From positions 1 through 64,000 of the forward strand of contig JAGWVA010000002.1 of assembly GCA_028875855.1 (NCBI GenBank): DNA of 64,000 bases, in the 5' to 3' direction. The notes beneath the pieces were generated by a model that was not told where the DNA came from, made no database searches, and was given only the letters and a program-made list of their open reading frames with translations. The stretch is from Paracoccaceae bacterium. GTDB lineage: Bacteria; Pseudomonadota; Alphaproteobacteria; Rhodobacterales; Rhodobacteraceae. This document shows positions 10,447 to 40,620 of this stretch, one piece after another; positions within the stretch are counted from its first letter, which is position 1; every line of letters begins with the position of its first letter. The translations under genes and the position numbers were made by a program.

Positions 10447-10773
10447 TCAGGCGGCTTCGGCCTGCTCCATGTCCATCGCGTGACGGCGTTCGCTTTCCTC
10501 GCGCGACAGCGCCACAGACGTCCGGATGCCCTTGCCGACGAATTCCATAAGACCCTTCACGACGCGTTCGTTCGGGTCGATCCCGGCGCAGGACAGCACT
10601 TCGCGCCCATCGCGCGAACGCGCCCAGCGGGCGATCTGCTCAGGTCCGTTGCCGTATTTCTTGTCATCTGCGATGGCATCGTCCAGCGCAGCCAGTACCA
10701 CCGCCGCAAACAGCTTGCGCGCGCGTTGGCCCTGTTCGTGGTTGAACGCGGTGCCATCAACGAAGTCGGCCAT
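10447..10773 (-). CDS. Small conserved Rhodobacteraceae protein (DUF6280-like)
   Basis: A 108-residue soluble protein with no recognised catalytic motif. It is rich in charged residues, with A-F-N-H-E-Q-G-Q-R-A-R-K-L-F at the start, a conserved-looking K-K-Y-G-N-G-P-E-Q-I-A-R-W-A centre, and N-E-R-V-V-K-G-L-M-E-F-V-G-K-G-I-R-T-S near the end, all probably helical. I recall near-identical proteins across Rhodobacteraceae, grouped as DUF6280, and that name is tentative. It is divergent from efp across 213 bp, and its own leader holds a 7-bp inverted repeat. Function unknown. Confidence 0.75.
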   Translation of the reverse strand: MADFVDGTAFNHEQGQRARKLFAAVVLAALDDAIADDKKYGNGPEQIARWARSRDGREVLSCAGIDPNERVVKGLMEFVGKGIRTSVALSREESERRHAMDMEQAEAA

Positions 10774-10802
10774 GGTGTCGTCCTATTCTTATTGCTCTTG
10801 CA

Positions 10803-10822
10803 ATTCCCGAGAGTGCGGGAAT
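10803..10822. promoter_or_regulatory. Inverted repeat upstream of the small conserved gene
   Basis: ATTCCCG-AGAGTG-CGGGAAT, a perfect 7-bp dyad 30 bp upstream of the 10773 start codon. It could be an operator or a 5' leader hairpin. No regulator is identified. Confidence 0.35.
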
Positions 10823-10917
10823 ACGGCGGTTTCGTGTCGATTCGGTATACCCGTAACCGAATGACGGCTATGCACGCGGCGTATACCTCGCGGCACGCGC
10901 TACAGCATATCGTCTCC

Positions 10918-10946
10918 TTGCCTCGGGATACCCGACCATATATAGG
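10918..10946 (+). promoter_or_regulatory. Candidate sigma70-type promoter of efp
   Basis: TTGCCT and TATAGG separated by 17 bases, ending 40 bp before the efp ATG. The surrounding DNA is unusually A/T-rich for this genome. This is a pattern match only. Confidence 0.45.
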
Positions 10947-10986
10947 GCCTGCGACGCTTCCATCAACCTCTTCGTAAGGTTTTCCC

Positions 10987-11550
10987 ATGGCCAAGATCAG
11001 TGGCAATGAAATCAAGCCCGGCACCATCATCGAACATGACGGCGGGCTTTGGGCCGCGGTGAAGACCAACCATGTAAAGCCCGGAAAAGGCGGGGCTTTC
11101 GCCCAGGTGGAGCTGAAGAACCTTCGCGACGGGCGCAAGCTCAACGAACGCTTCCGGTCGGAAGACAAGGTCGAGGCGGTGGACCTCGAGATGAAGGAAC
11201 AGCAGTTTCTTTACGAAGTGGACGGGATGCTCGTGTTCATGGACAACACGACCTTCGAGCAGATCGAGCTGCCGGCCGATCTTCTGGGCGAACGGCGTCC
11301 CTTCCTGCAGGACGGCATGACCGCGACGATCCAGTATTACGGCGACGAGGCCTTGTCGCTGCGTCTGCCGCAGAAGGTCATCTGCAAGGTGGTGGAGACC
11401 GAGCCCGTCCTGAACGGCCAGACCGCCGCCAAAAGCTTCAAGCCCGCGATCCTCGACAACGGCGTGCGCATCATGGTGCCGCCCTTCGTCGGGCCCGACG
11501 AGGATATCGTCGTTCACACCGAGCTGATGGAATATTCCGAGCGCGCCTGA
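10987..11550 (+). CDS. efp: Translation elongation factor P
   Basis: A 187-residue EF-P, the ribosome-binding factor that relieves stalling at consecutive prolines. It has the three-barrel family length, the N-terminal KOW-like domain, and the exposed loop K-P-G-K-G-G-A with the modifiable Lys34. The central E-Q-Q-F-L-Y segment and the C-terminal signature K-P-A-I-L-D-N-G-x-R-I-M-V-P-x-F then close the protein. No modification enzymes (EpmA/EpmB) are adjacent. It is convergent with ygfZ, 12 bp between stops. Confidence 0.97.
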
Positions 11551-22105: not shown

Positions 22106-24409
22106 ATGTCGAAGTTCGGCGAAAGCCAGGCGATCAAGCGCATTGAAGACATCCGTTTTCTGACCGGCCATGGTCGTTACATCGACGACGTCGCCCCCGA
22201 GGGCGCGCTGCATGCCGTCTTTTTCCGCTCTCCCGTCGCCCATGCCGAGATCGTGACGCTCGATCTGACCGAGGTGCGGGCCGTGCCGGGCGTGCGTCTG
22301 GCGCTGTCGGTCGAGGATCTGGAGGCCGCCGGGATCGGCATCGGCCTCGAGGCGCTGCTGGTCAAGAGCCGTGACGGCCGTCAGGGCGCGAACCCCTTCC
22401 GCCCGGTGCTGGCCAAGGGACGGGTGCGCTATGTGGGCGAACCCGTCGCCGTCATCGTCGCCGAAACGATGGAGGCTGCCCGCGACGGGCTGGAGGCCGT
22501 GATCTTCGATTACGCCGATCTGCCGGTGCACATGGAGGTCGCCCCCGGCGGGGCCGAACTGCATCCCGAGGCGCCCGCCAACGTCGCCTTCGACTGGGTC
22601 TATGGCGACGAGGCCGCGACCGAGGCCGCCTTTGCCAAGGCAGCCCATCGCGTCAGCCTGCGTCTGGAAGACAACCGGGTCATCGCCAACTCGATGGAGC
22701 CGCGCGGCGCCGTCGCCGACTGGGACGGCGAGCGGCTGCACCTCGCCTATGGCGGGCAGGGCGTCTGGCGGATGAAGGCCGTGATCGCCAAGTCGCTGGG
22801 CCTGCCCGAGGAAGCCGTGCATGTGACGACGCCCGATGTGGGCGGCGGTTTTGGCATGAAGGCCGGGGCCTATCCGGAATATTTCGTCGTCTCGGCGGCG
22901 GCAAAGATGCTGGGCGCGCCGGTGCGCTGGTTCGCCGACCGGACCGAGGCGATGCTGAGCGACAACGGCGGGCGCGATCTGGTGTCCACCGCCGAACTGG
23001 CGTTCGACGAAAGCTACAGGATCACCGCCTACCGCGTGAACACGCTGACCAATCTTGGCGCCTATAACTCGGGCTTCGGCCAGTGGGTGCAGTCCGAGAT
23101 CGCCACCAAGGTGCTGACCGGCGTCTATGACGTGCAGACCGTCTTCGTGAATGCAAAAGGCATCTACACCAACACCACGCAGGTCGATGCCTATCGCGGC
23201 GCGGGCAGGCCCGAGGCGATCTATACGCTGGAACGCACGATGGACCATGCCGCCCGCGTGCTGGGCGTCGATCCGTTCGAACTGCGCCGGCGCAACTTCA
23301 TCGCGCCCGACGCTTTCCCCTACAAGTCGGCGGCGGGCGAGCTTTACGACGTGGGCGATTTCCCCCGCGTCCTGTCCCGCCTCGAGGCCGAGGCCGCGGT
23401 TGCCGATTTTCCCGCCCGCAAGGCCGAGGCGTTGACGCGCGGCAATCTTCGCGGTCTGGGGCTTTGCTACTATGTCGAGGCAATCCTTGGAAATCCGACC
23501 GAAAACGCGGCGGTAGAGTTCAACGAGGACGGGACGGTGAGCCTTTACGTCGGCACCCAATCGAACGGGCAGGGGCACGAGACGGTCTATGCCCAGTTCC
23601 TGTCGGATCGCACCGGCATCCCGGTCGAGCGCATCGTGGTGGTGCAGGGCGACAGCGACCGCATCGCCACGGGCGGCGGCACGGGCGGCTCGCGCTCGGT
23701 CACCACGCAGTCGGTGGCGACGCTTGCGACGGTCGAAAAGATGGTCGCGGCCTTCGTGCCGTTCCTTGCCGATGAACTGGGGGCGGAACCGGCCTTCGAG
23801 GATGGCGCCTTCCGCGCCCCCGGCTCGAACCGGACCCTGACCCTGATCGAGGCGGCCGATCTGGCCCGCGCGGCGGGGCGCGTGGACCTGCTGCGACACG
23901 AGGAGCGGATCACCCTGCCGGGGCGCAGCTACCCCAACGGCGCGCATCTGGCCGAGGTCGAGGTGGACCCCGAGACCGGCAAGGTGACGCTTCAGCGCTA
24001 TGTCGTCACCGACGACTTCGGCAACCTCATGCATCCGCAACTGGCCGAGGGGCAGGTGCATGGCGGCGTGGCGCAGGGCTTCGGTCAGGCGGTCATGGAA
24101 CAGGTCGCCTATGACGATGCCGGTCAGATCCTCACGGCATCGTTCATGGACTATGCCATGCCGCGTGCCGAAGATTTGCCCATGTTCCGGTTTACAACGG
24201 AACCTGTCCCCTCGACCGCCAATCCGCTTGGCATGAAGGGCTGCGGCGAGGCGGGGACGGTGGGCGCGTTGGCGGCCGTGACGAACGCGGTTCTGGATGC
24301 GCTGTGGGACCGCGGTGTGCGGATGGTGGACATGCCCTGCACGCCGCATCGGGTGTGGCAATGGCTCAAGGCCGCCGAACAGAAGGAACCGGAGGGTGCG
24401 CTGGGTTAG
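22106..24409 (+). CDS. Molybdenum hydroxylase large subunit (form II CoxL-like), orphan
   Basis: A 767-residue xanthine-oxidase-family molybdopterin subunit. The start S-x-x-R-x-E-D-x-R-F-L-T-G-x-G-x-Y-x-D-D is typical of CO-dehydrogenase-type large chains. The active-site loop is A-Y-R-G-A-G-R (residues ~362-368), the form II version rather than the A-Y-R-C-S-F-R of true CO dehydrogenase. The catalytic Glu is about residue 715 in G-C-G-E-A-G. The usual FAD (CoxM) and 2Fe-2S (CoxS) genes are not adjacent. Expected role is hydroxylation of an aldehyde or heterocycle with partner subunits from elsewhere. It ends inside the next gene (14-bp overlap), suggesting coupled translation. Confidence 0.85.
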   Translation: MSKFGESQAIKRIEDIRFLTGHGRYIDDVAPEGALHAVFFRSPVAHAEIVTLDLTEVRAVPGVRLALSVEDLEAAGIGIGLEALLVKSRDGRQGANPFRPVLAKGRVRYVGEPVAVIVAETMEAARDGLEAVIFDYADLPVHMEVAPGGAELHPEAPANVAFDWVYGDEAATEAAFAKAAHRVSLRLEDNRVIANSMEPRGAVADWDGERLHLAYGGQGVWRMKAVIAKSLGLPEEAVHVTTPDVGGGFGMKAGAYPEYFVVSAAAKMLGAPVRWFADRTEAMLSDNGGRDLVSTAELAFDESYRITAYRVNTLTNLGAYNSGFGQWVQSEIATKVLTGVYDVQTVFVNAKGIYTNTTQVDAYRGAGRPEAIYTLERTMDHAARVLGVDPFELRRRNFIAPDAFPYKSAAGELYDVGDFPRVLSRLEAEAAVADFPARKAEALTRGNLRGLGLCYYVEAILGNPTENAAVEFNEDGTVSLYVGTQSNGQGHETVYAQFLSDRTGIPVERIVVVQGDSDRIATGGGTGGSRSVTTQSVATLATVEKMVAAFVPFLADELGAEPAFEDGAFRAPGSNRTLTLIEAADLARAAGRVDLLRHEERITLPGRSYPNGAHLAEVEVDPETGKVTLQRYVVTDDFGNLMHPQLAEGQVHGGVAQGFGQAVMEQVAYDDAGQILTASFMDYAMPRAEDLPMFRFTTEPVPSTANPLGMKGCGEAGTVGALAAVTNAVLDALWDRGVRMVDMPCTPHRVWQWLKAAEQKEPEGALG

Positions 24410-25499
24410 ACGACTTTGGCAATGGGGCCGCCCCGCGCGGATCGAGGCACATGGCCCCGATCACGCGCCGCTGCGCGGCCCCATCGACCATGTCGTCATC
24501 CTCGATGGCACCATGTCCACGCTGTCGCCGGGGCAAGAGACGAATGCCGGGCGGACCTACCGGCTGTTGCGTGAACTGGCCCCTTCGGCCCGGATGTCGA
24601 TCTATTACGAGGCGGGCATCCAGTGGCAGAGCTGGCGCCACACGCCCGACGTCTTGCAGGGGCGGGGGATCAACCGCCAGATCCGCCGCGCCTACGGCTT
24701 TCTGGCCTCGCGCTATCGGCCCGGGGATCGCATCTTCCTTTTCGGCTATTCGCGCGGGGCCTATGCCGTGCGGTCGCTTGCCGGCGTGATCGACCGGATC
24801 GGGCTGGTGCGCGCGGACGAGGCGACGGTGCGCAACATCGTTCTGGCCTATCGCCATTATCAGACCGGTCCCGATACGCAGGCCGCTGCGGCGTTCCGGC
24901 GGCTGATGTGCCACGACGAAGTGGCGATCGAGATGGTCGGCGTCTGGGACACGGTGAAGGCGCTCGGTCTGCCGTTCCCGGTGGTGCGCCGCTTCAGCCA
25001 GCCCAAGCACGACTTTCACAACCACGAACTGGGGCCGGTGATCCGTCGCGGCTTCCATGCGCTTGCGCTGGACGAGACGCGCGTCGCCTTCTCGCCGGTC
25101 CTGTGGCATTGCCCCGAGGATTACACGGGCCGGGTGGAACAGGTCTGGTTCCGCGGCGCGCATGGCGATGTGGGCGGGATGCTGGGCGCGGCGCAGGCCT
25201 GCCGCCCGCTTGCGAATATCCCGCTGGTCTGGATGCTGTCCAAGGCCGAAACCTGCGGCCTTGGCCTGCCGGGCGACTGGCGCTCGCGGTTTCCGACCGA
25301 CCCGGACGCGCCGATGGTCGGCACGTGGAGCGGGATCGGCAAGCTGTTCGTCAAGCGCCGTCGCCGCCCGGTGGGGCAGGACCCGTCCGAGGCGATTCAT
25401 CCTTCGGCGGCCGCGTGGCACCGCGAACATCATCTGCGCGCCCGCTGGCACGGATTCCGGGCATCCGAACTTGGGGCGCTGCCGCTCAGCCGGCCATGA
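24396..25499 (+). CDS. DUF2235 alpha/beta-hydrolase-like protein
   Basis: A 367-residue protein of the DUF2235 family. The nucleophile-elbow motif G-Y-S-R-G-A is at residues ~117-122, with Ser119. V-I-L-D-G-T sits near the start, where other members have C-D-G-T, and V-W-F-R-G-A-H-G-D-V-G-G is the conserved late motif with Asp and His candidates. Relatives include type VI secretion phospholipase effectors (Tle) and uncharacterised bacterial proteins. No T6SS or immunity gene lies here and no signal peptide is seen, so an effector role is not supported. I chose GTG at 24396 because AAGGAA is well spaced and it overlaps the CoxL stop. Its 3' end overlaps the converging thioesterase by 14 bp. 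Confidence 0.75.
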   Translation: MRWVRRLWQWGRPARIEAHGPDHAPLRGPIDHVVILDGTMSTLSPGQETNAGRTYRLLRELAPSARMSIYYEAGIQWQSWRHTPDVLQGRGINRQIRRAYGFLASRYRPGDRIFLFGYSRGAYAVRSLAGVIDRIGLVRADEATVRNIVLAYRHYQTGPDTQAAAAFRRLMCHDEVAIEMVGVWDTVKALGLPFPVVRRFSQPKHDFHNHELGPVIRRGFHALALDETRVAFSPVLWHCPEDYTGRVEQVWFRGAHGDVGGMLGAAQACRPLANIPLVWMLSKAETCGLGLPGDWRSRFPTDPDAPMVGTWSGIGKLFVKRRRRPVGQDPSEAIHPSAAAWHREHHLRARWHGFRASELGALPLSRP

Positions 25500-26116: not shown

Positions 26117-26983
26117 TCAGGCCACCTTTTCCAGCGCGACCTCTGGCACCAGCCCAAGCGCATGGCAGACGTCGCGCGTCAGGTGGGGGCGGTTGAGCGT
26201 GTAGAAATGCAGGTTCTCGACACCTTCCTGCAACAGCGTGTCGCACAGTTCCGTGCAGAGCGCGGTCGCCAGAAGTTCTTCGCGCCCGTCGCGCCGGGCG
26301 GTCGTGAAGGCCTCGTCCAGCCAGTGCGGAACGCTTGTCCCGCACCGCGCGGCGAAGCGCTTCGTGCCTTCCCAGTTCTCGATCGGCAGGATGCCGGGAA
26401 TGATGGGCGCGGTGATGCCCGCGTCGGCGCAGGCGTCGCGGAAGCGCAGGAAGGTCTCCGCCTCGAAGAAGAACTGCGTGATCGCGGCCGTGGCGCCGGC
26501 CTCGATCTTGCGCTTGAGCCACTGGATGTCGGCGGCGGTATCGGCGGCCTCGGGGTGCTTTTCGGGATAGGCGCCCACGCGCAGGGTGAATTTGCCGGTC
26601 GCGGCCAGCGCCTCGATCAGTTCGACGGTGTCGGCGAAGCCCTCCGGATGCGCGGTGAAACGCGCGGCCCCCTTCGGCGCGTCGCCCCGCAGCGCGACAA
26701 GGTCGGTGATCCCGGCCGCGGCATAGCTGTCGGCGATCTCCATGGTTTCCGCCCGGGTGGCATCGACGCAGGTCAGATGCGCCGCAACCCGCAGCCCCGT
26801 GGCCTTGCCGATCGTGGTGACCGCCTCATGCGTGAGCTTGCGCGTCGTCCCGCCCGCCCCGTAGGTGACCGACACGAAGTCCGGCCGCAGCGGCGCCAGC
26901 ATCTGGACGGTTTCCCACAGGCGGAAGCTCGCCTCGAGCGATTGCGGCGGGAAAAACTCGAAAGACACGGCGGGGCTGGTCAT
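26117..26983 (-). CDS. metF: Methylenetetrahydrofolate reductase
   Basis: A 288-residue flavoprotein that reduces 5,10-methylene-THF to 5-methyl-THF for methionine synthesis. The start V-S-F-E-F-F-P-P-Q includes the catalytic Glu of the F-E-F-F-P-P motif. T-Y-G-A-G-G-T and H-L-T-C-V are substrate and FAD segments, and I-T-Q-F-F-F-E (barrel) and G-I-L-P-I follow. ATG at 26983 has a perfect AGGAGG nine bases upstream; the 11 extra residues of the longer frame are excluded. It is divergent from a MetR-like regulator. Its product pool is also fed by GcvT-type dehydrogenases such as those at 33129-38097. Confidence 0.95.
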   Translation of the reverse strand: MTSPAVSFEFFPPQSLEASFRLWETVQMLAPLRPDFVSVTYGAGGTTRKLTHEAVTTIGKATGLRVAAHLTCVDATRAETMEIADSYAAAGITDLVALRGDAPKGAARFTAHPEGFADTVELIEALAATGKFTLRVGAYPEKHPEAADTAADIQWLKRKIEAGATAAITQFFFEAETFLRFRDACADAGITAPIIPGILPIENWEGTKRFAARCGTSVPHWLDEAFTTARRDGREELLATALCTELCDTLLQEGVENLHFYTLNRPHLTRDVCHALGLVPEVALEKVA

Positions 26984-27027
26984 GGGAACCTCCTGTTCAC
27001 AAGCCCCTTGTCGCACGCGGCGGAACG

Positions 27028-30858: not shown

Positions 30859-32161
30859 CACGGGACTGACCCACCGCCGGGTTCTGGCCATCGCCCTGCC
30901 CATCGTGCTGTCGAACGCGACGGTGCCGCTTCTGGGCGCGGTCGATACCGGCGTCGTGGGCCAGATGGGGCAAGCGGCCCCCATCGGGGCCGTGGGTCTT
31001 GGCGCGGTGGTGCTGTCGTCGATCTACTGGATCTTCGGGTTTCTGCGCATGGGCACGTCCGGCATGGTGGCGCAGGCCCGCGGCGCGCGCGACGAGGCCG
31101 AGGTGGGCGCGATCCTTGCCCGCGCGCTTCTGATCGGCGGGGCGGCGGGGCTGGCGGCCATCGCCTTGCAGGGCCCGCTGTTCTGGCTTGCCTTCCGCGT
31201 GGCGCCCGCCTCGGCCGAGGTCGAGCGGCTGGCCCGCAGCTACCTGTCGCTGCGCATCTGGGGCGCGCCCGCGACGATTTCGGCCTATGCCGTCACCGGA
31301 TGGCTGATCGCGACCGAGCGCACGCGCGGGGTTCTGGTCCTGCAACTCTGGATGAACCTTGCGAACATCGCGCTGGACCTGTGGTTCGTCCTCGGCCTTG
31401 GCTGGGGCGTGCGCGGAGTGGCGGGGGCCACGGTGATCGCGGATTGGTCCGGGCTGATCCTTGGCCTCTGGCTCTGTCGCGGCGCCTTCGCGGGCGGGTT
31501 CTGGCATGATGCGCGGCGGCTTTTTGACCGGGTGAAGCTGCGGCGCATGGTGCAGGTGAACGGCGACATCATGCTGCGCACCGTGCTGTTGCAGGGCTCG
31601 TTCACCGCCTTCACCTTTCTTGGCGCGGGCTTTGGCGACCGCATCCTGGCTGCGAACCAGGTGCTGATGCAGTTTCTCGAGATCACCGCCTTCGCGCTGG
31701 ACGGCTTTGCCTTTGCGGCCGAGTCGCTGGTGGGGCAGGCGGTGGGCGCGCGGGCGCGGGCCGAGCTGCGCCGCGCGGCGGTGCTGACGGGACAATGGGG
31801 CGCGGGCGGCGCGCTGGCACTGGCGGCGGGCTTCGCGCTGATCGGACCCGGCCTGATCGACGTGATGACGACCGACCCGGCGGTGCGCGAGACCGCGCGC
31901 GCCTTCCTGCCCTGGGTCGTGGCAGCGCCCCTGATCGGCGTGGCAAGCTGGATGTTCGACGGCATCTTCATCGGGGCGACGATGACGCGGGCCATGCTGG
32001 GGGCGATGGCGATCTCGGTTGCCTGCTACGCGGTGGCGCTGCTGACCTTCCTGCCGATCTGGGGCAATACCGGGCTCTGGGCCGCACTGATGGTGCTAAA
32101 CGCTGCGCGCGGGGTCAGCATGGCGACGCTTTATCCACGGGTGGAACGCCGAGCCGCCTAG
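30851..32161 (+). CDS. MATE-family exporter (DinF/NorM-like)
   Basis: A 436-residue inner membrane antiporter with about 12 transmembrane helices in two similar halves. P-I-V-L-S-N-A-T-V-P-L-L-G-A-V-D-T opens helix 1, with the Asp common to the DinF branch. G-T-S-G-M-V-A-Q-A-R-G-A follows helix 2, and G-Q-A-V-G-A-R-A opens the second half. It exports cationic drugs or other compounds with Na+ or H+. It is last in the coupled operon with the two thioesterases, and overlaps the stop of the converging LysR gene. Confidence 0.88.
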   Translation: MADTGLTHRRVLAIALPIVLSNATVPLLGAVDTGVVGQMGQAAPIGAVGLGAVVLSSIYWIFGFLRMGTSGMVAQARGARDEAEVGAILARALLIGGAAGLAAIALQGPLFWLAFRVAPASAEVERLARSYLSLRIWGAPATISAYAVTGWLIATERTRGVLVLQLWMNLANIALDLWFVLGLGWGVRGVAGATVIADWSGLILGLWLCRGAFAGGFWHDARRLFDRVKLRRMVQVNGDIMLRTVLLQGSFTAFTFLGAGFGDRILAANQVLMQFLEITAFALDGFAFAAESLVGQAVGARARAELRRAAVLTGQWGAGGALALAAGFALIGPGLIDVMTTDPAVRETARAFLPWVVAAPLIGVASWMFDGIFIGATMTRAMLGAMAISVACYAVALLTFLPIWGNTGLWAALMVLNAARGVSMATLYPRVERRAA

Positions 32162-33024
32162 CCGCGCGGGCGCGCCTTTGCGCCGAAGCGGTCGCGCAGG
32201 ATGCCAAGAATGCGCCGGTGCAGGTGACCGGGGCGGTTCTTCACATGGAGGGCCGCATAGACGGGCTGGCCGATCGGCGCGACGTCCGTGACCGCCTTCG
32301 CCCGGCCCTCGGCCACGAGCCGGTCCACGACCGGACCCGGCAGGAAGGCCGACCCGCCCATCGCCAGAAGCAACGCCTCTACCGCCGCCGTCTGGCCGCT
32401 CGAGACCGGCGTTTCGGTGAAACCGGGCAGGGCCTGATCGTGCAGCCGCGCGAAGGCGGGCGAATATTCGGTGCGGATATGCGCCTCGACCCGCAGATCG
32501 GCGCGGCGGTCAGCCTCGGTCGAGACAAGCCGATAGGGAATTTCGCCAAGCTGCTCGAAGTAGAGATCGGGTTGCGGGCGCGGCGTGAAGATGATGCCGA
32601 AATCGCTCGCCCCCTGCACGATGTCGGTGCAGATCTGGATGGAATAATCCGGCTCGATGTAAAACGCCGTCTGCGGCAGCGCGGCCCGGAACGCTGCCAC
32701 CCAGGCCCCGAGATAGAGGGCGGCGACGTCCTGCTGGATGCCGATCCGCAGGCTCAGCGCGCTTGTCGCGGTGGATTGCACGGCCCGCAGGCTTTCCGTC
32801 CATTCCCGACGCAGGCTGCGGGCGTGGGGCTCGAACTTCAGCCCCTCGGTCGTCAGCTGCGTGCCCGCGCGCGAGCGGGTGAAAAGACGCCGCCCGACCG
32901 CCGATTCCAGCGCCAGAAGCCGCGCCGAGACGGTCGATTGCGTCACGCCCATGCGTTCTGCCGTGCGGTGGAAACTGCGGGTTTCCACGAGGTCGAGGAA
33001 GGTTTCCAGAAGCTCGATCTGCAT
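32158..33024 (-). CDS. LysR-family regulator of the demethylation cluster
   Basis: A 288-residue LysR regulator. The helix-turn-helix (residues ~3-60) has F-L-D-L-V-E-T-R-S-F-H-R-T-A-E-R-M-G-V-T-Q-S-T-V-S. An effector-binding domain follows. The ATG at 33024 gives the standard start M-Q-I-E-L-L; ten extra codons upstream are excluded. It is divergent from the first 812-residue dehydrogenase gene, and the 104-bp gap carries a 19-bp dyad with T-N11-A, so it is the likely controller of 33129-40620. The inducer would be a substrate of that pathway, not identified. Confidence 0.88.
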   Translation of the reverse strand: MQIELLETFLDLVETRSFHRTAERMGVTQSTVSARLLALESAVGRRLFTRSRAGTQLTTEGLKFEPHARSLRREWTESLRAVQSTATSALSLRIGIQQDVAALYLGAWVAAFRAALPQTAFYIEPDYSIQICTDIVQGASDFGIIFTPRPQPDLYFEQLGEIPYRLVSTEADRRADLRVEAHIRTEYSPAFARLHDQALPGFTETPVSSGQTAAVEALLLAMGGSAFLPGPVVDRLVAEGRAKAVTDVAPIGQPVYAALHVKNRPGHLHRRILGILRDRFGAKARPRG

Positions 33025-33034
33025 GGAACGACCC

Positions 33035-33053
33035 TGATCGATTTTCCCGATCA
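33035..33053. promoter_or_regulatory. LysR-type operator dyad
   Basis: TGATCG-N7-CGATCA, perfect 6-bp arms, containing the inner T-N11-A core (T at 33038, A at 33050). It sits 11 bp upstream of the LysR start and about 75 bp upstream of the divergent dehydrogenase start. Confidence 0.6.
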
Positions 33054-33128
33054 ATATCCCCGCTCCGGGTGAATTGAAAGCGCCGGTATGCAGCCGGATA
33101 CTCTGCGCCGAAGCAGGGGAGGGCAGGC

Positions 33129-35567
33129 ATGAGCGGATTTCCGACGCAAGCGCGGGTGGTCATCATCGGCGGCGGGGCAGTGGGGGCCTCGGCGCTCTAT
33201 CACCTTGCCAAGGCGGGCTGGACGGACTGCCTTCTGCTGGAGAAGAACGAACTGACGGCCGGGTCCACATGGCATGCGGCGGGGAACGTTCCGACCTTCT
33301 CGTCAAGCTGGTCGATCATGAACATGCAGCGCTATTCGGCCGAGCTCTATCGCGGCCTTGGCGCGGCGGTGGACTATCCGATGAACTACCACGTCACCGG
33401 GTCGGTGCGCCTTGGCCACAGCCGCGAACGGCTGATGGAGTTCCAGCGCGTGAAGGGTATGGGGCGCTATCAGGGCATTGACCTCGAGGTGTTGACGCCC
33501 GACGAGATCCGCAGCCGCTATCCCTTCGTCGAGACGCATGAGCTGACCGGCGCGCTTTATGACCCTTACGACGGCGACATCGACCCCGCGCAGCTCACGC
33601 AGGCGCTGGCGAAGGGCGCGCGGTCCATGGGCGCGCGCATCGAACGCTTCTGCCCCGTGACGGGCGTCCGGCGCGAGGGGGGCGACTGGGTGATCGAGAC
33701 GCCCAAGGGCGAAATCCGGGCCGAGATCGTGGTGAACGCCGCCGGTTACTATGCCGCCGAGGTGGGCCGCATGTTCGGCCGCGAGGTGCCGATGATGGTG
33801 ATGAGCCATCAATACATGCTGTTCGACACGATCCCGGAACTGGAGGCCTGGTCGAAGGAGGTGGGCCACAAGCTGCCGCTGCTGCGCGACGTGGACAGCT
33901 CATATTACCTTCGGCAGGAGAAATACGGCTTCAATCTCGGGCCCTACGAGAAGGGCTGCCGCGCGCATTGGGTGACCAAGGACGACCCGATGCCTGAGGA
34001 TTTCAGCTTCCAGCTGTTCCCCGACGATCTCGACCGGCTGGAATGGTATATCAACGATGCGATGGAACGGGTGCCGCTGCTGCAACAGGCGAACCTGACC
34101 AAGGTTATCAACGGCCCGATCCCCTATACGCCGGACGGCAATCCCCTGATCGGCCCGATGCCCGGCGTGCCGAACGCCTTCGAGGCCTGCGTCTTCACCT
34201 TCGGCATCTGCCAGGCGGGCGGCGCGGGCAAGGTGCTGGCCGAATGGGTGACGGAGGGCGCCACCGAATGGGACATGTGGTCCTGCGATCCGCGCCGCTT
34301 CACCGGTTTCGAGGATCGCGACTACTGCGTGGCAAAGGGGCTCGAGGTCTATGGCAACGAATATGCCATGCACTTCCCCCGCCATTCCTGGCCGGAAGGA
34401 CGGCCCCGGAAGCTTTCGGCGGTCCATGACCGGACGCAGGCGCTTGGCGCGGTCTATGGCGCCTATAACGGGTGGGAGCGGGCGCTGTGGTATGCGCGTC
34501 CGGGCGATGACACCTCGGAGGCGGCGCAGCGGACATGGGATCGCGAGGGGCCATGGTTCGGTGCGATGCGCGACGAGGCGCAGGCGGTGCGCGACGCGGC
34601 CGGTATCCTCGACCTGCCGGGGTTCTCGCGGTTCCGCCTGACGGGGGCGGGCGCGGCCGACTGGCTGGGCCGCCAGATCACCGGCAAGCTGCCGGGCGTG
34701 GGCCGGCTGGGCCTTGGCTATTTCGCCGACGACAAGGGCCGGATCGTCACCGAGATGTCGATCTGCCGGCTGGCCGAGGACGAAATCTGGCTGATCACCG
34801 CGGCCACGGCGCAGGTGCACGACCGCGACTGGCTGATGCGCCACCTCGACCCCGGGCTGACGCTGGTGGACGAGACCGACGACTGGTCCTGCCAGATCCT
34901 GACCGGCCCAAGGGCGCGCGACGTGCTGGCGGGCGTGGCCGAGGCGGACCTGACGAAACCCTGGCTGACCTGGCAGGCCGCGCGCATCGCGGGCCGGGAC
35001 GTGATGCTGATGCGGGTGTCCTTCGCGGGCGAGCTGGGCTGGGAGATTCATTCCCGGCTGGCCGACACGGGCGCGGTCTATGACGCGGTGATGGCGGCGG
35101 GGGCGCCCCACGGGCTGAAACCCTTCGGGATGTTCGCCCTCGACAGTCTCAGGCTGGAAAAGGGCTACCGGGCGTGGAAGGGCGATCTTTCGACCGACTA
35201 CACCGTGCTGCAGGGCGGGCTCGACCGCTTCGTGGACTGGTCCAAGCCCGCTTTCCGCGGCAAGGCCGCGCTCGATGCGGAACGGCAGGCGGGGGTCGCC
35301 AAGCGGTTCGTCATCCTCGAGGTCGCGCCGGGCGAGACGGACCCGCCCTACATGTCCACGATCTGGCACGGGGGCGCCGTGGTGGGCGAGACGACATCGG
35401 GCGGCTGGGGCTTCCGGGTGGAGGCCTGCGTCGCGCTCGGGATGCTGCGGTCGGACCTCGCGGTGCCGGGGACGGCGCTGGAGGTCGAGGTGTTCGGCGA
35501 GCGCCGCGCGGCGAAGGTGCTCGACGGGGCGCCGTGGGACCCGGCGAACCTTCGGTTGCGTGCGTGA
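33129..35567 (+). CDS. FAD/GcvT dehydrogenase, dimethylglycine/sarcosine dehydrogenase-like (1)
   Basis: An 812-residue two-module enzyme. Residues ~9-400 are a DAO-type FAD domain, with the dinucleotide motif G-G-G-A-V-G at 14-19 and the covalent-FAD site His49 in G-S-T-W-H-A-A-G. Residues ~440-810 are a GcvT-like folate domain ending with an aminomethyltransferase C-terminal barrel (G-E-L-G-W-E-I, L-E-K-G-Y-R-A-W). Family members oxidise N-methyl groups of dimethylglycine or sarcosine and pass the carbon to tetrahydrofolate as methylene-THF. GGGGAGGG precedes the ATG. It is first in a four-gene run. Exact substrate unknown. Confidence 0.85.
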   Translation: MSGFPTQARVVIIGGGAVGASALYHLAKAGWTDCLLLEKNELTAGSTWHAAGNVPTFSSSWSIMNMQRYSAELYRGLGAAVDYPMNYHVTGSVRLGHSRERLMEFQRVKGMGRYQGIDLEVLTPDEIRSRYPFVETHELTGALYDPYDGDIDPAQLTQALAKGARSMGARIERFCPVTGVRREGGDWVIETPKGEIRAEIVVNAAGYYAAEVGRMFGREVPMMVMSHQYMLFDTIPELEAWSKEVGHKLPLLRDVDSSYYLRQEKYGFNLGPYEKGCRAHWVTKDDPMPEDFSFQLFPDDLDRLEWYINDAMERVPLLQQANLTKVINGPIPYTPDGNPLIGPMPGVPNAFEACVFTFGICQAGGAGKVLAEWVTEGATEWDMWSCDPRRFTGFEDRDYCVAKGLEVYGNEYAMHFPRHSWPEGRPRKLSAVHDRTQALGAVYGAYNGWERALWYARPGDDTSEAAQRTWDREGPWFGAMRDEAQAVRDAAGILDLPGFSRFRLTGAGAADWLGRQITGKLPGVGRLGLGYFADDKGRIVTEMSICRLAEDEIWLITAATAQVHDRDWLMRHLDPGLTLVDETDDWSCQILTGPRARDVLAGVAEADLTKPWLTWQAARIAGRDVMLMRVSFAGELGWEIHSRLADTGAVYDAVMAAGAPHGLKPFGMFALDSLRLEKGYRAWKGDLSTDYTVLQGGLDRFVDWSKPAFRGKAALDAERQAGVAKRFVILEVAPGETDPPYMSTIWHGGAVVGETTSGGWGFRVEACVALGMLRSDLAVPGTALEVEVFGERRAAKVLDGAPWDPANLRLRA

Positions 35568-35658: not shown

Positions 35659-38097
35659 ATGCAGCAACTACCGGCGAAGGCGCGGGCGGTCATCATCGGG
35701 GGCGGCGTGTCGGGCTGCTCGCTGGCCTATCATCTGGGCAAGCTGGGGTGGACCGACGTGGTGCTGCTGGAACGCAAGCAGCTGACCTGCGGCACGACCT
35801 GGCATGCGGCGGGGCTGGTGGGCCAGCTGCGCGGCAGCCAGAACATGACGCGGCTCGCCAAGTATTCGGCCGATCTCTACGTCAAGCTCGAGGCCGAGAC
35901 CGGCGTTGCCACGGGGATGCGGCAGGTGGGGTCGATCTCGGTCGCGCTGACCGAGGCGCGGCACGAGGAGCTGCTGCGGCAGGCGACACTGGCGCGGGCC
36001 TTCGACGTCGAGGTGAACGAGATCTCGCCCGCCGAGGTGAAGGCGATGTATCCCCATCTCGAGGTGGGCGATGTCGTGGGCGCGGTGCATCTGCCGCTTG
36101 ACGGCCAGTGCGATCCGGCCAACATCGCCATGGCGCTGGCCAAGGGCGCGCGGATGCGCGGAGTTGCCATCCACGAGGGCGTGAAGGTGACCGGCGTGAC
36201 CGACGACGGCGCGCGGGTGACCGGCGTCGATTGGGAGGCGGGGGGCGCGCGCGGGCACATCGCGGCCGACATCGTCATCAACTGCGGCGGCATGTGGGGG
36301 CGCGATCTGGCGGCGCAGTCGGGGGTGAGCCTGCCGCTGCATGCCTGCGAGCATTTCTACCTTGTCACCGAACCGATCGAGGGGCTGGGCCACCTGCCGG
36401 TGCTGCGGGTGCCCGACGAATGCGCCTATTACAAGTCGGACGCGGGCAAGATGATGCTGGGCGCCTTCGAGCCGAAGGCCAAGCCCTGGGGCATGGCGGG
36501 CATCCCCGAGGATTTCTGCTTCGACGCGCTGCCCGAGGATTTCGACCATTTCCAGCCGATCCTGGAAGCCGCGATGCACCGGATGCCGATGTTCGAGACG
36601 GCGGGCATCCACACCTTCTTCAACGGACCCGAAAGCTTCACGCCGGACGACCGCTATTACCTGGGCGAGGCGCCGGAGCTGAAGGGCTACTGGGTTGCGG
36701 CGGGCTACAACTCGATCGGGATCGTGTCGTCGGGGGGCGCGGGGATGGCGCTGGCGCAATGGCTCAACGACGGCGAGCCGCCCTTCGATCTGTGGGAGGT
36801 GGATATCCGCCGGGCGCAGCCCTTCCAGCGCAACCGCCGCTATCTGAAGGAGCGGGTGAGCGAGACGCTGGGCCTGCTTTACGCCGATCACTGGCCCTAT
36901 CGGCAGATGGAGACCGCGCGCGGGGTGCGCCGCTCGCCGCTGCATGGCGCGCTGGCCGAGCGAGGCGCCGTCTTCGGCGAGGTGGCGGGCTGGGAGCGGG
37001 CGAACTGGTTCGCCCTCCCCGGGCAGGAGCGCGAATACCGCTACGACTGGGGCCGGCAGAACTGGTTCGAGAACCAGAAGGCCGAGCACATGGCGGTGCG
37101 CACCGGCGTGGGCCTCTTCGACATGACCAGCTTCGGCAAGATCCGCGTCGAGGGGCGCGATGCGCTGGCCTTCCTGCAACGGGTCTGTGCCAATGACATG
37201 GACGTGGCGCCGGGGCGCATCGTCTATACGCAGATGCTGAACGCGCGTGGCGGGATCGAGAGCGACCTGACCGTCACGCGGCTGTCGGAGACGGCCTTCC
37301 TGCTGGTCGTGCCGGGGGCGACGCTCAGGCGCGATCTGGCCTGGCTCAACCGCCACGTCGGCGCGGATTTCGCCGTCATCACCGATGTGACGGCGGGCGA
37401 GGCGGTGCTGTGCCTGATGGGGCCCAAGGCGCGCGAGGTGCTGGCGCGCGTCTCGCCCAACGACCTGAGCAACGCGGGCCATCCCTTTGGCACGGCGCGA
37501 GAAATCGAGATCGGCATGGGCCTCGCGCGGGCGCATCGGGTCACCTATGTGGGCGAACTCGGCTGGGAGCTTTACGTCTCGACCGATCAGGCCGCGCATG
37601 TCTTCGAGGCGCTGACCGAGGCCGCCCCGGAGATCAGGCTTTGCGGGCTTCACACGCTCGACTCCTGCCGGATCGAGAAGGCCTTCCGTCACTGGGGCCA
37701 TGACATCACGGACGAGGATCATGTGCTGGAGGCGGGCCTGGGCTTCGCGGTCAGGACCGGCAAGGGCGACTTCATCGGCCGCGACGCTGTGCTGGCCAAG
37801 CGCGAGGCGGGGCTTGAGCGGCGGATGGTGCAGTTCCTGCTCGAGGACCCCGAGCCGATGCTGTTTCACAACGAGGCGGTGGTGCGGGATGGCAAGATCG
37901 TGTCCATCGTGACCTCGGCCAATTACGGGCATGCGCTCGGGGGCGCGGTGGGCATGGGCTATGTGCCCTGCCGGGGCGAAAGCGCCGAGGAGGTTCTGGC
38001 CTCGCGCTACGAGATCGAGATTGCCGGGCGGCGGGTGCCGGCGCGGGCCTCGCTCGTGCCGATGTATGACCCGAAAGCGGACCGCGTGCGGATGTGA
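35659..38097 (+). CDS. FAD/GcvT dehydrogenase, dimethylglycine/sarcosine dehydrogenase-like (2)
   Basis: A second 812-residue paralogue with the same module order. It has G-G-G-V-S-G at residues 14-19, the covalent-FAD His49 in G-T-T-W-H-A-A-G, a FAD domain to ~400 and a GcvT domain with G-E-L-G-W-E-L and I-E-K-A-F-R-H-W-G-H-D-I. The motif around His49 (T-C-G-T-T-W-H-A-A-G-L-V-G-Q-L) is closer to classic dimethylglycine/sarcosine dehydrogenases than copy 1, which has N-V-P-T-F. The two differ enough to suggest different substrates, for example successive N-demethylations. The ATG at 35659 was chosen because the frame upstream is antisense-like and includes the repeat element. Confidence 0.85.
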   Translation: MQQLPAKARAVIIGGGVSGCSLAYHLGKLGWTDVVLLERKQLTCGTTWHAAGLVGQLRGSQNMTRLAKYSADLYVKLEAETGVATGMRQVGSISVALTEARHEELLRQATLARAFDVEVNEISPAEVKAMYPHLEVGDVVGAVHLPLDGQCDPANIAMALAKGARMRGVAIHEGVKVTGVTDDGARVTGVDWEAGGARGHIAADIVINCGGMWGRDLAAQSGVSLPLHACEHFYLVTEPIEGLGHLPVLRVPDECAYYKSDAGKMMLGAFEPKAKPWGMAGIPEDFCFDALPEDFDHFQPILEAAMHRMPMFETAGIHTFFNGPESFTPDDRYYLGEAPELKGYWVAAGYNSIGIVSSGGAGMALAQWLNDGEPPFDLWEVDIRRAQPFQRNRRYLKERVSETLGLLYADHWPYRQMETARGVRRSPLHGALAERGAVFGEVAGWERANWFALPGQEREYRYDWGRQNWFENQKAEHMAVRTGVGLFDMTSFGKIRVEGRDALAFLQRVCANDMDVAPGRIVYTQMLNARGGIESDLTVTRLSETAFLLVVPGATLRRDLAWLNRHVGADFAVITDVTAGEAVLCLMGPKAREVLARVSPNDLSNAGHPFGTAREIEIGMGLARAHRVTYVGELGWELYVSTDQAAHVFEALTEAAPEIRLCGLHTLDSCRIEKAFRHWGHDITDEDHVLEAGLGFAVRTGKGDFIGRDAVLAKREAGLERRMVQFLLEDPEPMLFHNEAVVRDGKIVSIVTSANYGHALGGAVGMGYVPCRGESAEEVLASRYEIEIAGRRVPARASLVPMYDPKADRVRM

Positions 38098-38140: not shown

Positions 38141-39709
38141 ATGGGTGCTGGCATGGAAGAGACGGTGATCGGTTGCGCGCCCGAACGGGCGCGGCGGGCG
38201 GGCGGACGGGCGAGCCGGGTGGCTTTGCGCGCGGCGCCGCTGGCGGAGGCCCTGCGGCCGGTGCGGCCGGGCTTGCCCGGCGGGCAATACAAGCCGCTGA
38301 GCGCGGAGGGCATGGAGCGCATCCACCAATCGGCGCTGGAGGCGCTGGAGGTGATCGGCTTCGGCTCGGTGCCGCCCACGGGGCGCGAGATCCTGACCCG
38401 CGCCGGGGCGGTGATGGGCGAGGATGGGCGTGTCCGCTTTCCGCGCGCGCTGGTCGAGGACATGCTGGCCAAGGCCGCGCGGGGGATCACCCTGCATGGG
38501 CGCGATCCGAAATACGACCTGCACCTGACCGGGACCAATGTGCATTTCGGCACGGCTGGCGCGGCGGTGCATATCGTCGATCTGGAGCGTAACGACTATC
38601 GGGATTCGACCTCGAAGGATCTCTTTGACGCGGCGCGGCTGACCCATAACCTTGATAACGTGCACTTCTTCCAGCGCGCCATGGTCTGCCGCGATATCGC
38701 CGACAATTACGACATGGACGTGAACACGCTTTACGCCTGTTGCGCGGGCACGACGAAGCATGTGGGCACATCCTTTTCGGACCCCTCGCATGTAAAGGGG
38801 TGTTTCGAGCTTCTGCACATGATCGCGGGCGGCGAGAAGAAGTGGCGCGAGCGGCCTTTCGTCAGCAATTCCAACTGCTTCGTCGTGCCGCCGATGAAAT
38901 TCGCCGAAGAGAGCTGCCGCACGATGGAATTGTGCGTCGAGGGCGGGATGCCGATCCTTCTGCTGTCGGCCGGGCAGGCGGGGGCCACGGCACCCGCGCC
39001 GATCGCGCTGGCCATCGTTCAGGCGATGGCCGAATGCCTTGCCGGGCTGGTCTATGTGAATGCGATGGTGCCCGGGCATCCCTGCATCTTCGGCACCTGG
39101 CCTTTCGTGTCGGACCTGCGCACGGGCGCGATGTCGGGCGGGTCTGCGGAACAGGCCCTGCTGACGGCGGGCTGCGCACAGATGCACCAGTTCTACGGCC
39201 TGCCGGGCGGCGCGGCCTCGGGCATCTCGGACAGCAAGCTGCCGGACATGCAGGCGGGCTGGGAGCAGGGGATCACCAACGTCCTTGCCGGGCTCTCCGG
39301 GCTCAACATGGCCTATGAGGCGGTGGGGATGCATGCCTCGCTCTTGGGCTTCTGTCTGGAAAGCCTCGTGATGGGCGATGACATCCTGGGTCAGGTCATG
39401 CGCTGCGTGCGTGGCATCGAGGTGACCGAGGACAAGGTGTCGATCGAGGCGATGACGCAGGTCTGTCTGGGCGGGCCGGGCCATTACCTCGGGTCCGAAC
39501 AGACGCTGAGCCTGATGCAGACCGAATACGTCTATCCCGTGGTGGGCAACCGGATGAGCCCCAAGGAATGGGTGGAGGCGGGCAAGCCCGAGCTGCTCGA
39601 CCGGGCCATCGCGCGCAAGAACGCGATCCTTGCCAAGGCCGGGAACCTGATCGACCCGGAGATCGACGCGGCGATCCGGGCCACCTATCACATTCACGTG
39701 CCGGCATGA
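38141..39709 (+). CDS. Trimethylamine methyltransferase (MttB) family protein, pyrrolysine-free
   Basis: A 522-residue member of the MttB superfamily. The long barrel shows H-F-G-T-A-G-A-A-V-H, K-H-V-G-T-S-F-S-D-P, P-L-x-x-S-A-G-Q-A-G-A-T-A-P (as I-L-L-L-S-A-G-Q-A-G-A-T-A-P) and G-L-P-G-G-A-A-S-G-I-S-D-S-K. There is no in-frame TAG, so it lacks the pyrrolysine of true MttB and belongs with homologues such as glycine betaine methyltransferase MtgB. Those move a methyl group from a quaternary amine to a corrinoid protein. No corrinoid protein or MtgA-like enzyme is adjacent. Two ATGs lie at 38141 and 38153; the first has GAGGA seven bases upstream. The context is two N-demethylating dehydrogenases. 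Confidence 0.85.
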   Translation: MGAGMEETVIGCAPERARRAGGRASRVALRAAPLAEALRPVRPGLPGGQYKPLSAEGMERIHQSALEALEVIGFGSVPPTGREILTRAGAVMGEDGRVRFPRALVEDMLAKAARGITLHGRDPKYDLHLTGTNVHFGTAGAAVHIVDLERNDYRDSTSKDLFDAARLTHNLDNVHFFQRAMVCRDIADNYDMDVNTLYACCAGTTKHVGTSFSDPSHVKGCFELLHMIAGGEKKWRERPFVSNSNCFVVPPMKFAEESCRTMELCVEGGMPILLLSAGQAGATAPAPIALAIVQAMAECLAGLVYVNAMVPGHPCIFGTWPFVSDLRTGAMSGGSAEQALLTAGCAQMHQFYGLPGGAASGISDSKLPDMQAGWEQGITNVLAGLSGLNMAYEAVGMHASLLGFCLESLVMGDDILGQVMRCVRGIEVTEDKVSIEAMTQVCLGGPGHYLGSEQTLSLMQTEYVYPVVGNRMSPKEWVEAGKPELLDRAIARKNAILAKAGNLIDPEIDAAIRATYHIHVPA

Positions 39710-39720
39710 GGGGAGAGAGA

Positions 39721-40620
39721 ATGCACTACGGCTATATCGGACTGGGCAATCTGGGCGGGCATCTGGCCGAAAGCCTGATCCGGGCCGGGTTTCAGGTGAC
39801 GGTCTATGACCGGGACGCGAAGCTCGCGGAACGCCACCGGGCGCTTGGCGCGACGGTCGCGGGGTCGGTCGCGGACCTGGCTGCCGGTGTCGATCACGTC
39901 TTCACCTGCCTGCCGTCCCCTGCGGTGAGCGAGGCGGTGCTGGCCGAGATGCTGCCCGCGCTGCGCGCCGGCGCGACCTGGATCGAGAATTCGACGCTCG
40001 GGCGCGACGACATGCTGCGGTTGGCGGCGCTTGCCAGTGCCTCGGGCATCGATGTGCTGGAGGCGCCGGTGACCGGCGGCGTCCACCTTGCCGCGCGCGG
40101 CGAGATCACGGTGCTGGCCGGCGGACCCGAGACCTTGTTCGAGGCGCATCGCCCGGCGCTCGAGGCGATCGGGGGCAAGATCTTCCACATGGGGCCGCTG
40201 GGATCTGCCGCGGTCATCAAGGTCATCACCAACATGCTGGCCTTCATCCACCTTGTCGCCGATGGCGAGGCGCTGATGCTGGCCAAGCGCGGCGGGCTTG
40301 ACCTTGGCAAGGCCTGGCAGGCGATCACCGCGTCGTCGGGCACGAGCTTTGTCCATGAAACAGAAGGCCAGCTGATCCTGAACGGGAGCTATGACATCGC
40401 CTTCACCATGGATCTGGCGCTGAAGGATCTTGGCTTTGCCATGGGCTTCGGGCGGGAATTCGGCGTGCCGCTGGATCTGGCCGGGGTGGTGCAGCAGACC
40501 TTCGTGAAGGGCAAGGCGGCCTATGGCGGGGCGGCGCAATCGACGCAGATCGTGAAGCTTTTGGAGGATGTGCTGAACACCGACCTGCGGGCCCCGGGCT
40601 TCCCCGCGCGTCTCGAATGA
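39721..40620 (+). CDS. NAD-binding beta-hydroxyacid dehydrogenase
   Basis: A 299-residue enzyme of the 3-hydroxyisobutyrate/6-phosphogluconate dehydrogenase superfamily. The Rossmann motif G-L-G-N-L-G is at 7-12. Asp30 after the second strand suggests NAD preference. A-P-V-T-G-G-V (115-121) is the substrate loop, catalytic Lys is Lys167 in K-V-I-T-N-M, and the C-terminal helical domain includes K-D-L-G-F-A. GGGGAGAGAG precedes the ATG. As last gene of the cluster it may oxidise a hydroxy acid left from the demethylated compound. Substrate unknown. Confidence 0.85.
   Translation: MHYGYIGLGNLGGHLAESLIRAGFQVTVYDRDAKLAERHRALGATVAGSVADLAAGVDHVFTCLPSPAVSEAVLAEMLPALRAGATWIENSTLGRDDMLRLAALASASGIDVLEAPVTGGVHLAARGEITVLAGGPETLFEAHRPALEAIGGKIFHMGPLGSAAVIKVITNMLAFIHLVADGEALMLAKRGGLDLGKAWQAITASSGTSFVHETEGQLILNGSYDIAFTMDLALKDLGFAMGFGREFGVPLDLAGVVQQTFVKGKAAYGGAAQSTQIVKLLEDVLNTDLRAPGFPARLE

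Follow-up and report, generated by a model that had tools for sequence, protein, structure and literature searches.

An MttB-type methyltransferase encoded with no corrinoid protein beside it raises the question of where its methyl group goes. Such a gene lies at positions 38141..39709 of a 64,000-nucleotide stretch of DNA from a Paracoccaceae bacterium, the whole of which we call the window. The initial annotation described the product as a pyrrolysine-free MttB without an adjacent corrinoid or MtgA-like gene, and offered two ways out: either the partner is encoded elsewhere in the genome, where an MttC-type corrinoid protein with a D-x-H-x-x-G motif should be sought, or the enzyme uses a different acceptor, for example tetrahydrofolate (THF) through the neighbouring GcvT-domain enzymes. 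Here, we argue from comparisons of genes and genomes that the window MttB most likely represents an uncharacterised MttB subfamily that would pass methyl groups to a known, shared corrinoid carrier.

The window MttB and its neighbours

The open reading frame of the window MttB (38141..39709, plus strand) runs from ATG to TGA, encodes 522 residues and contains no in-frame TAG. Its product was assigned with Pfam and NCBIfam-type models. It matches PF06253 (MTTB) with 351 bits against a cut-off of 25, over profile positions 1–490 of 500, and this significant, near-full-length match places it in the MttB superfamily (COG5598, PF06253). It falls outside the class of pyrrolysine trimethylamine methyltransferases: the score to TIGR02369 is 326 bits, below the cut-off of 525, and the pyrrolysine position is occupied by Ile362. 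The description as a pyrrolysine-free MttB is therefore correct. The other pocket positions considered below are G140, F247, Y392 and E393. A structure prediction from 26 sequences (the window MttB and 25 close relatives) reached a mean pLDDT of 58.5 and a pTM of 0.66, and was not relied on.

The gene is the third of four that point in the same direction. Two fusions of DAO, FAO_M and GcvT domains (33129..35567 and 35659..38097, both on the plus strand; FAD-GcvT genes below) are followed, after a gap of 43 bases, by the MttB gene, and a 3-hydroxyisobutyrate dehydrogenase-type (HIBADH) oxidoreductase (39721..40620, plus strand) begins 11 bases past the MttB stop. Upstream of this run, a LysR-type regulator (32158..33054, minus strand) is transcribed divergently. 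The starts at 35659 and 39721 were read by eye within frames that are open from 35275 and 39568, respectively. Both FAD-GcvT proteins are dimethylglycine dehydrogenase-like, in that their nearest solved structures are dimethylglycine dehydrogenases (DMGDH): the first matches the mitochondrial chain 5l46 with 567 bits, the second chain 4pab with 453 bits. Also in the window is a gene (24297-25499) whose product matches PF09994 (T6SS Tle1-like phospholipase catalytic domain) with 218 bits; an MTHFR gene is nearby at 26117-27016.

Genes of a corrinoid system elsewhere in the genome

We searched the whole genome (3.86 Mb in 148 contigs, listed as 99.97% complete) with the profiles PF02607, PF02310, PF00809 and PF14574. 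None of the four gave a match on the contig that holds the window (C134), so that the absence of an adjacent corrinoid or MtgA-like gene is confirmed for these families. Elsewhere, the only B12-binding_2 (PF02607) match is a 232-residue MtgC-type protein on contig 45, whose sequence GDIHDIGKN contains the D-x-H-x-x-G motif; the next gene after it encodes a DUF1638 protein. The best NCBIfam matches of this protein are to MtgC and to methyltransferase-cognate corrinoid proteins, all below the curated cut-offs (206 against 370 for MtgC_2, 179 against 215 for pyl_corrinoid). Contig 79 (C79) encodes an MtgD homologue, a methyl-THF:corrinoid methyltransferase (PRK07535, 407 bits, cut-off 259), whose neighbour is a frame that matches MTHFR weakly, and also an MtgE homologue (PRK07534, 555 bits, cut-off 338). 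A RamA-type protein is encoded on contig 118 (PF14574, RACo_C_ter, 293 bits). The genome of the window MttB thus holds MtgC, MtgD and RamA, the gene set of a shared-carrier MtgBCD system. Genome-wide, PF02607 and PF02574 each gave one match; a classical MetH would be expected to raise both counts to two, so there is no sign of one.

Four MTTB genes are present in the genome, namely the window MttB and paralogues on contigs 117 (C117), 97 (C97) and 11 (C11). Among the other B12-related matches, five further proteins match B12-binding (PF02310), and the one of them that was scanned against Pfam gave B12-binding alone. From their translations we take them to be a radical-SAM B12 protein, two acyl-CoA mutases and two AerR/PpaA-like regulators, and judged all five to be something other than methyl carriers. 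The radical-SAM protein and an AerR-like protein are both on contig 60 (L092, L095), and such proteins would suit a bacteriochlorophyll-making organism. PF00809 has two matches, on contigs 24 (C24) and 79; that on contig 24 was rejected as an MtgD and is taken instead as dihydropteroate synthase, by its score and by a nearby frame that is presumably glmM-like.

The name that NCBIfam gives to the MtgE candidate is 'betaine--homocysteine S-methyltransferase'. We adopt the naming of a study of Ruegeria pomeroyi, which argues in the part drawn on here that such homocysteine methyltransferases of these bacteria are MtgE (PMC12478193). As described there, R. pomeroyi genetically requires mtgC and mtgD to demethylate glycine betaine as well as to make methionine, its RamA and DUF1638 protein are found at higher levels on N-osmolytes, and genomes carry up to seven pfam06253 genes, for which the authors suggest diverse substrates. 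The genome of the window MttB resembles MtgBCDE of R. pomeroyi DSS-3 in having an MTTB protein, a single MtgC, MtgD, MtgE, a RamA-type protein and a DUF1638 protein encoded at scattered sites, with no sign of a classical MetH (PMC12478193). Since the gene set matches this scattered layout, the lack of a corrinoid gene adjoining the window MttB is what one would expect.

Co-occurrence of window-type MttB with MtgC

The window MttB and MtgC were both used as queries against one set of 387 alphaproteobacterial genomes. Counting as window-type orthologues those with at least 51% identity and at least 552 bits (42 genomes, from 17 families), and as MtgC orthologues those with at least 336 bits (80 genomes; next score 211), we found MtgC in 41 of the 42 carriers versus 39 of the 345 non-carriers (Fisher p 9e-32, kinship ignored). 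A second sample, drawn from the order, comprised 292 genomes, with six handles in common with the first sample and all listed rows from one family. Here carriers had a best E-value of 2e-214 or lower (next 5e-116), MtgC was called at 5e-112 or lower, and it was present in 181/181 carriers versus 83/111 others. Added together, 222 of 223 carriers (five counted twice) have MtgC. MtgC is a near-obligate companion of this MttB clade in these genomes.

Such co-occurrence does not prove that MtgC makes contact with the window MttB, because kinship is uncorrected and any MTTB protein tracks MtgC: 84 of the 387 genomes have some match to the window MttB (E ≤ 0.001), and 80 of these have MtgC. No genome among the 387 has MtgC without any such match, and MtgC without a window-type orthologue is common. 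In the order sample, two genomes (G538, G642) have an MtgC orthologue and no MTTB match.

Genomes that are MTTB-positive and lack MtgC do exist, and count against a corrinoid partner. There are four in the first sample. In two of them (G006, G209) the matches are all incomplete pieces, several of which lie at the ends of contigs; a third (G062) has fragments and one frame of 452 residues that lacks part of the domain. The fourth, G147, is the sole carrier without an MtgC orthologue; it is 93% complete and has six MTTB matches in frames of 516-626 residues. Its only B12-binding_2 match is a MetH-sized frame of 1251 residues, and its congener G228 has MtgC. In the order sample, G420, G530 and G672 have another MTTB match and no MtgC orthologue; an MttB in these three may conceivably use a different carrier or do without one.

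Weighing these exceptions against the MtgC on contig 45, the MtgD, RamA, MtgE and DUF1638 genes of the same genome and the tight association across both samples, we favour the proposal that the partner is encoded elsewhere. We put at roughly 85% the probability that the window MttB is a corrinoid-dependent methyltransferase whose acceptor, the MtgC of this genome, is encoded in trans, and whose substrate is probably a quaternary methylated amine. As MtgC, which also serves methionine synthesis, is probably its acceptor, the window MttB would not be an orphan.

Neighbourhoods of relatives and the tetrahydrofolate route

Gene content was compared in 80 loci of near relatives and in 33 of distant ones, the latter being those fetched of the 42 carriers in the 387-genome sample. 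Genes were searched by blastp (E ≤ 1e-10, at least half of the query) in flanks of up to ~10 kb, shorter at contig ends, and were counted if present anywhere in the locus. With queries from the window's own genome, unrelated corrinoid families being outside the search, homologues of MtgC, MtgD, RamA and DUF1638 were found in 0/80 near and 0/33 distant loci. That mtg genes never lie within these 113 loci of the clade speaks to some extent against MtgC as the partner, for the R. pomeroyi study, as far as it is drawn on here, describes them as often colocated in other bacteria, although scattered in R. pomeroyi itself (PMC12478193).

One or more FAD-GcvT genes occur in 68/80 near and 23/33 distant loci, so that the linkage recurs across the clade. 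Where near loci extend at least 5.5 kb upstream, LysR was found in 62 of 65; among distant loci it was found in 2/33. Twelve near loci lack FAD-GcvT. Five of these (L025, L028, L031, L049, L069) start within ~100 bases of MttB and are therefore uninformative on upstream genes. The other seven (L015, L032, L041, L051, L057, L081, L082), four from Yoonia or Loktanella and three from other Rhodobacteraceae, have ~10 kb upstream and no FAD-GcvT gene in the fetched stretch; all keep the LysR-MttB pair and six also the dehydrogenase. In two further loci (L058, L060), the sole FAD-GcvT gene is more than 7 kb away. On pSymB of Sinorhizobium meliloti Ak57 (L199, 2949-10437), a 76%-identical relative has LysR and one annotated FAD-dependent gene upstream, and a 2.5-kb stretch without a listed gene stands where the second FAD-GcvT gene would be expected.

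These neighbourhoods bear on the proposal that the methyl group passes directly to THF in the neighbouring GcvT domains. In its favour, the FAD-GcvT genes are immediately upstream of MttB and are better conserved than any other neighbour. Moreover, Thr111 and Gly372 of pyrrolysine MttB (Pyl-MttB), which make hydrogen bonds to the corrinoid, are replaced by Ala141 and Leu401 in the window MttB; this would suit a corrinoid-free route and counts against MtgC as acceptor, though the corrinoid enzyme MtgB differs as well, with Gly and Phe. However, what GcvT fusions of the DMGDH type deliver to THF, after oxidation of an N-methyl amine, is carbon at the formaldehyde level and not a methyl cation. 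For that reason, the FAD-GcvT pair fits the next two demethylations and not the acceptance of a methyl group. Direct transfer would also call for constant association with GcvT and for independence from corrinoid genes. The seven relatives above keep MttB with no FAD-GcvT gene nearby, and only 1/42 and 0/181 carriers lack MtgC. The alternative acceptor put forward in the initial annotation is therefore very improbable, and transfer to MtgC is the reading that we carry forward.

The substrate pocket

If MtgC is the acceptor, the next question is which amine donates the methyl group. A known pyrrolysine-free relative is MtgB of Desulfitobacterium hafniense (2qne, 9yce), a glycine-betaine methyltransferase of the same family, which the window MttB matches with 195 bits. 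Four residues of MtgB, Y94, N199, R309 and H345, have been proposed from docking to bind glycine betaine (PMC6855144, as far as drawn on here). For the 9yce chain we assumed an offset of plus one in the numbering, and the resulting positions are indeed Y, N, R and H. The window MttB keeps 0/4 of these docking-based residues (G140, F247, G357 and E393 stand in their place), and, unlike MtgB, has no partner genes nearby. The replacements are themselves conserved, since the 33 distant relatives have G in 33, F in 32, G in 32 and E in 33. In contrast, Y/N/R/H is found in the paralogues on contigs 117 and 97 and in chain 4yyc, and S/N/R/H, with three kept, in that on contig 11.

That the window MttB is the MtgB of this bacterium would agree with its two DMGDH-like neighbours, as together they match the series betaine to dimethylglycine to sarcosine to glycine. 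Near a distant relative there is also an AraC regulator with a DJ-1/PfpI domain, which we take to be GbdR-like. The divergence of all four proposed residues and their retention in the paralogues nevertheless make this reading unlikely. Because the contig-117 paralogue matches 2qne with 410 bits, versus 195 for the window MttB, it is the better MtgB candidate. The paralogue on contig 97 (L088, 1070-9810) lies beside a LysR gene and an FMN/FAD oxidoreductase, with an NMT1/OpuAC-type substrate-binding protein ~5 kb beyond it.

The chains 7xcl and 7xcm are taken here as the pyrrolysine MttB of Methanosarcina barkeri. In a 50-row tree with its root drawn at the midpoint, MtgB, 4yyc and the three paralogues split with full support from the window clade and Pyl-MttB; the Pyl-MttB branch is very long, with unusual letter make-up, and the tool warns of long branches meeting. 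Gly110 and Tyr364 of Pyl-MttB take part in pyrrolysine activation (PMC9842639, as far as drawn on here). They correspond to G140 and Y392 of the window MttB and are kept in 33/33 distant relatives. Unlike Pyl-MttB, the window MttB has no pyrrolysine, and in the distant relatives the pyrrolysine position holds Met in 27, Ile in 5 and Ala in 1.

The substrate is thus probably not glycine betaine. We lean towards some other methylated amine, for instance a quaternary one of choline or sulfonate type, demethylated through the same MtgC. A pocket that is both divergent from MtgB and conserved within the clade points this way, as do the genes downstream in near loci with at least 2.6 kb on that side (HIBADH in 67/71, aldehyde dehydrogenase in 42/71), a choline-kinase-like gene near a distant relative and the surroundings of a 42%-identical gene of R. 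pomeroyi, both described below. Yet none of these neighbours persists throughout the clade: among 31 distant loci, aldehyde dehydrogenase and HIBADH were found once each. In addition, R179, which is kept in 33/33 distant relatives, might provide a binding site for a carboxylate in another part of the pocket.

Relatives with other neighbours

The R. pomeroyi gene is on the megaplasmid (L200, 8917-18237, SPO_RS21400 to SPO_RS21380), and its product, WP_011242090.1, has a LysR gene beside it and two FAD-dependent genes downstream, similar to the window locus. It differs from the window MttB at pocket positions 320, 392 and 393 and in having a class III aminotransferase and a ThDP enzyme as neighbours. 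The ThDP enzyme scores 401 bits to the sulfoacetaldehyde acetyltransferase (Xsc) model, below the cut-off of 620. Judging from these genes, the megaplasmid locus may serve to break down an N-methylated aminosulfonate or an amine of similar kind, which hints, by inference only, at aminosulfonate-like substrates in the sister group of the window clade. In a distant alphaproteobacterium (L145), a choline/ethanolamine-kinase-like gene at 10478-11359 adjoins a window-type MttB. The pair recalls the choline-kinase and MthB route of Eubacterium limosum, as outlined in the part of that report drawn on here (PMC12155760).

A proposed pathway and its implications

In the pathway that we propose, a methylated amine, probably a quaternary one, would give up one methyl group to the window MttB, which would transfer it to the Co(I) corrinoid of the single MtgC of the genome. 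MtgD could then pass the methyl group from MtgC to THF, or MtgE could use it to form methionine, while RamA and the DUF1638 protein would maintain the cobalt in its reduced state. On the amine left by the first step, the FAD-GcvT pair would carry out two further demethylations and so form methylene-THF. The four co-directional genes could form an operon, and might be co-regulated with the genes of the carrier.

Although it resembles MtgBCDE of R. pomeroyi DSS-3 in its gene set, the system differs from it in that the window clade lacks the proposed glycine-betaine pocket. Our search of the literature found no description of this clade, which does not prove that none exists. We see about an even chance that it is an unrecognised branch of the MttB superfamily, with a pocket like that of Pyl-MttB, no pyrrolysine, a substrate other than glycine betaine, and, jointly with the two DMGDH-like enzymes, a full N-demethylation operon that feeds the corrinoid of methionine synthase.

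The apparent exception presented by this locus is thereby removed: a lone MttB gene in an aerobe is not evidence of corrinoid-free chemistry where the genome has a shared MtgC. The analysis also brings out a widespread subfamily of MttB whose pocket speaks against a glycine-betaine label and points to another methylated amine, from which bacteria of many alphaproteobacterial families may draw one-carbon units.
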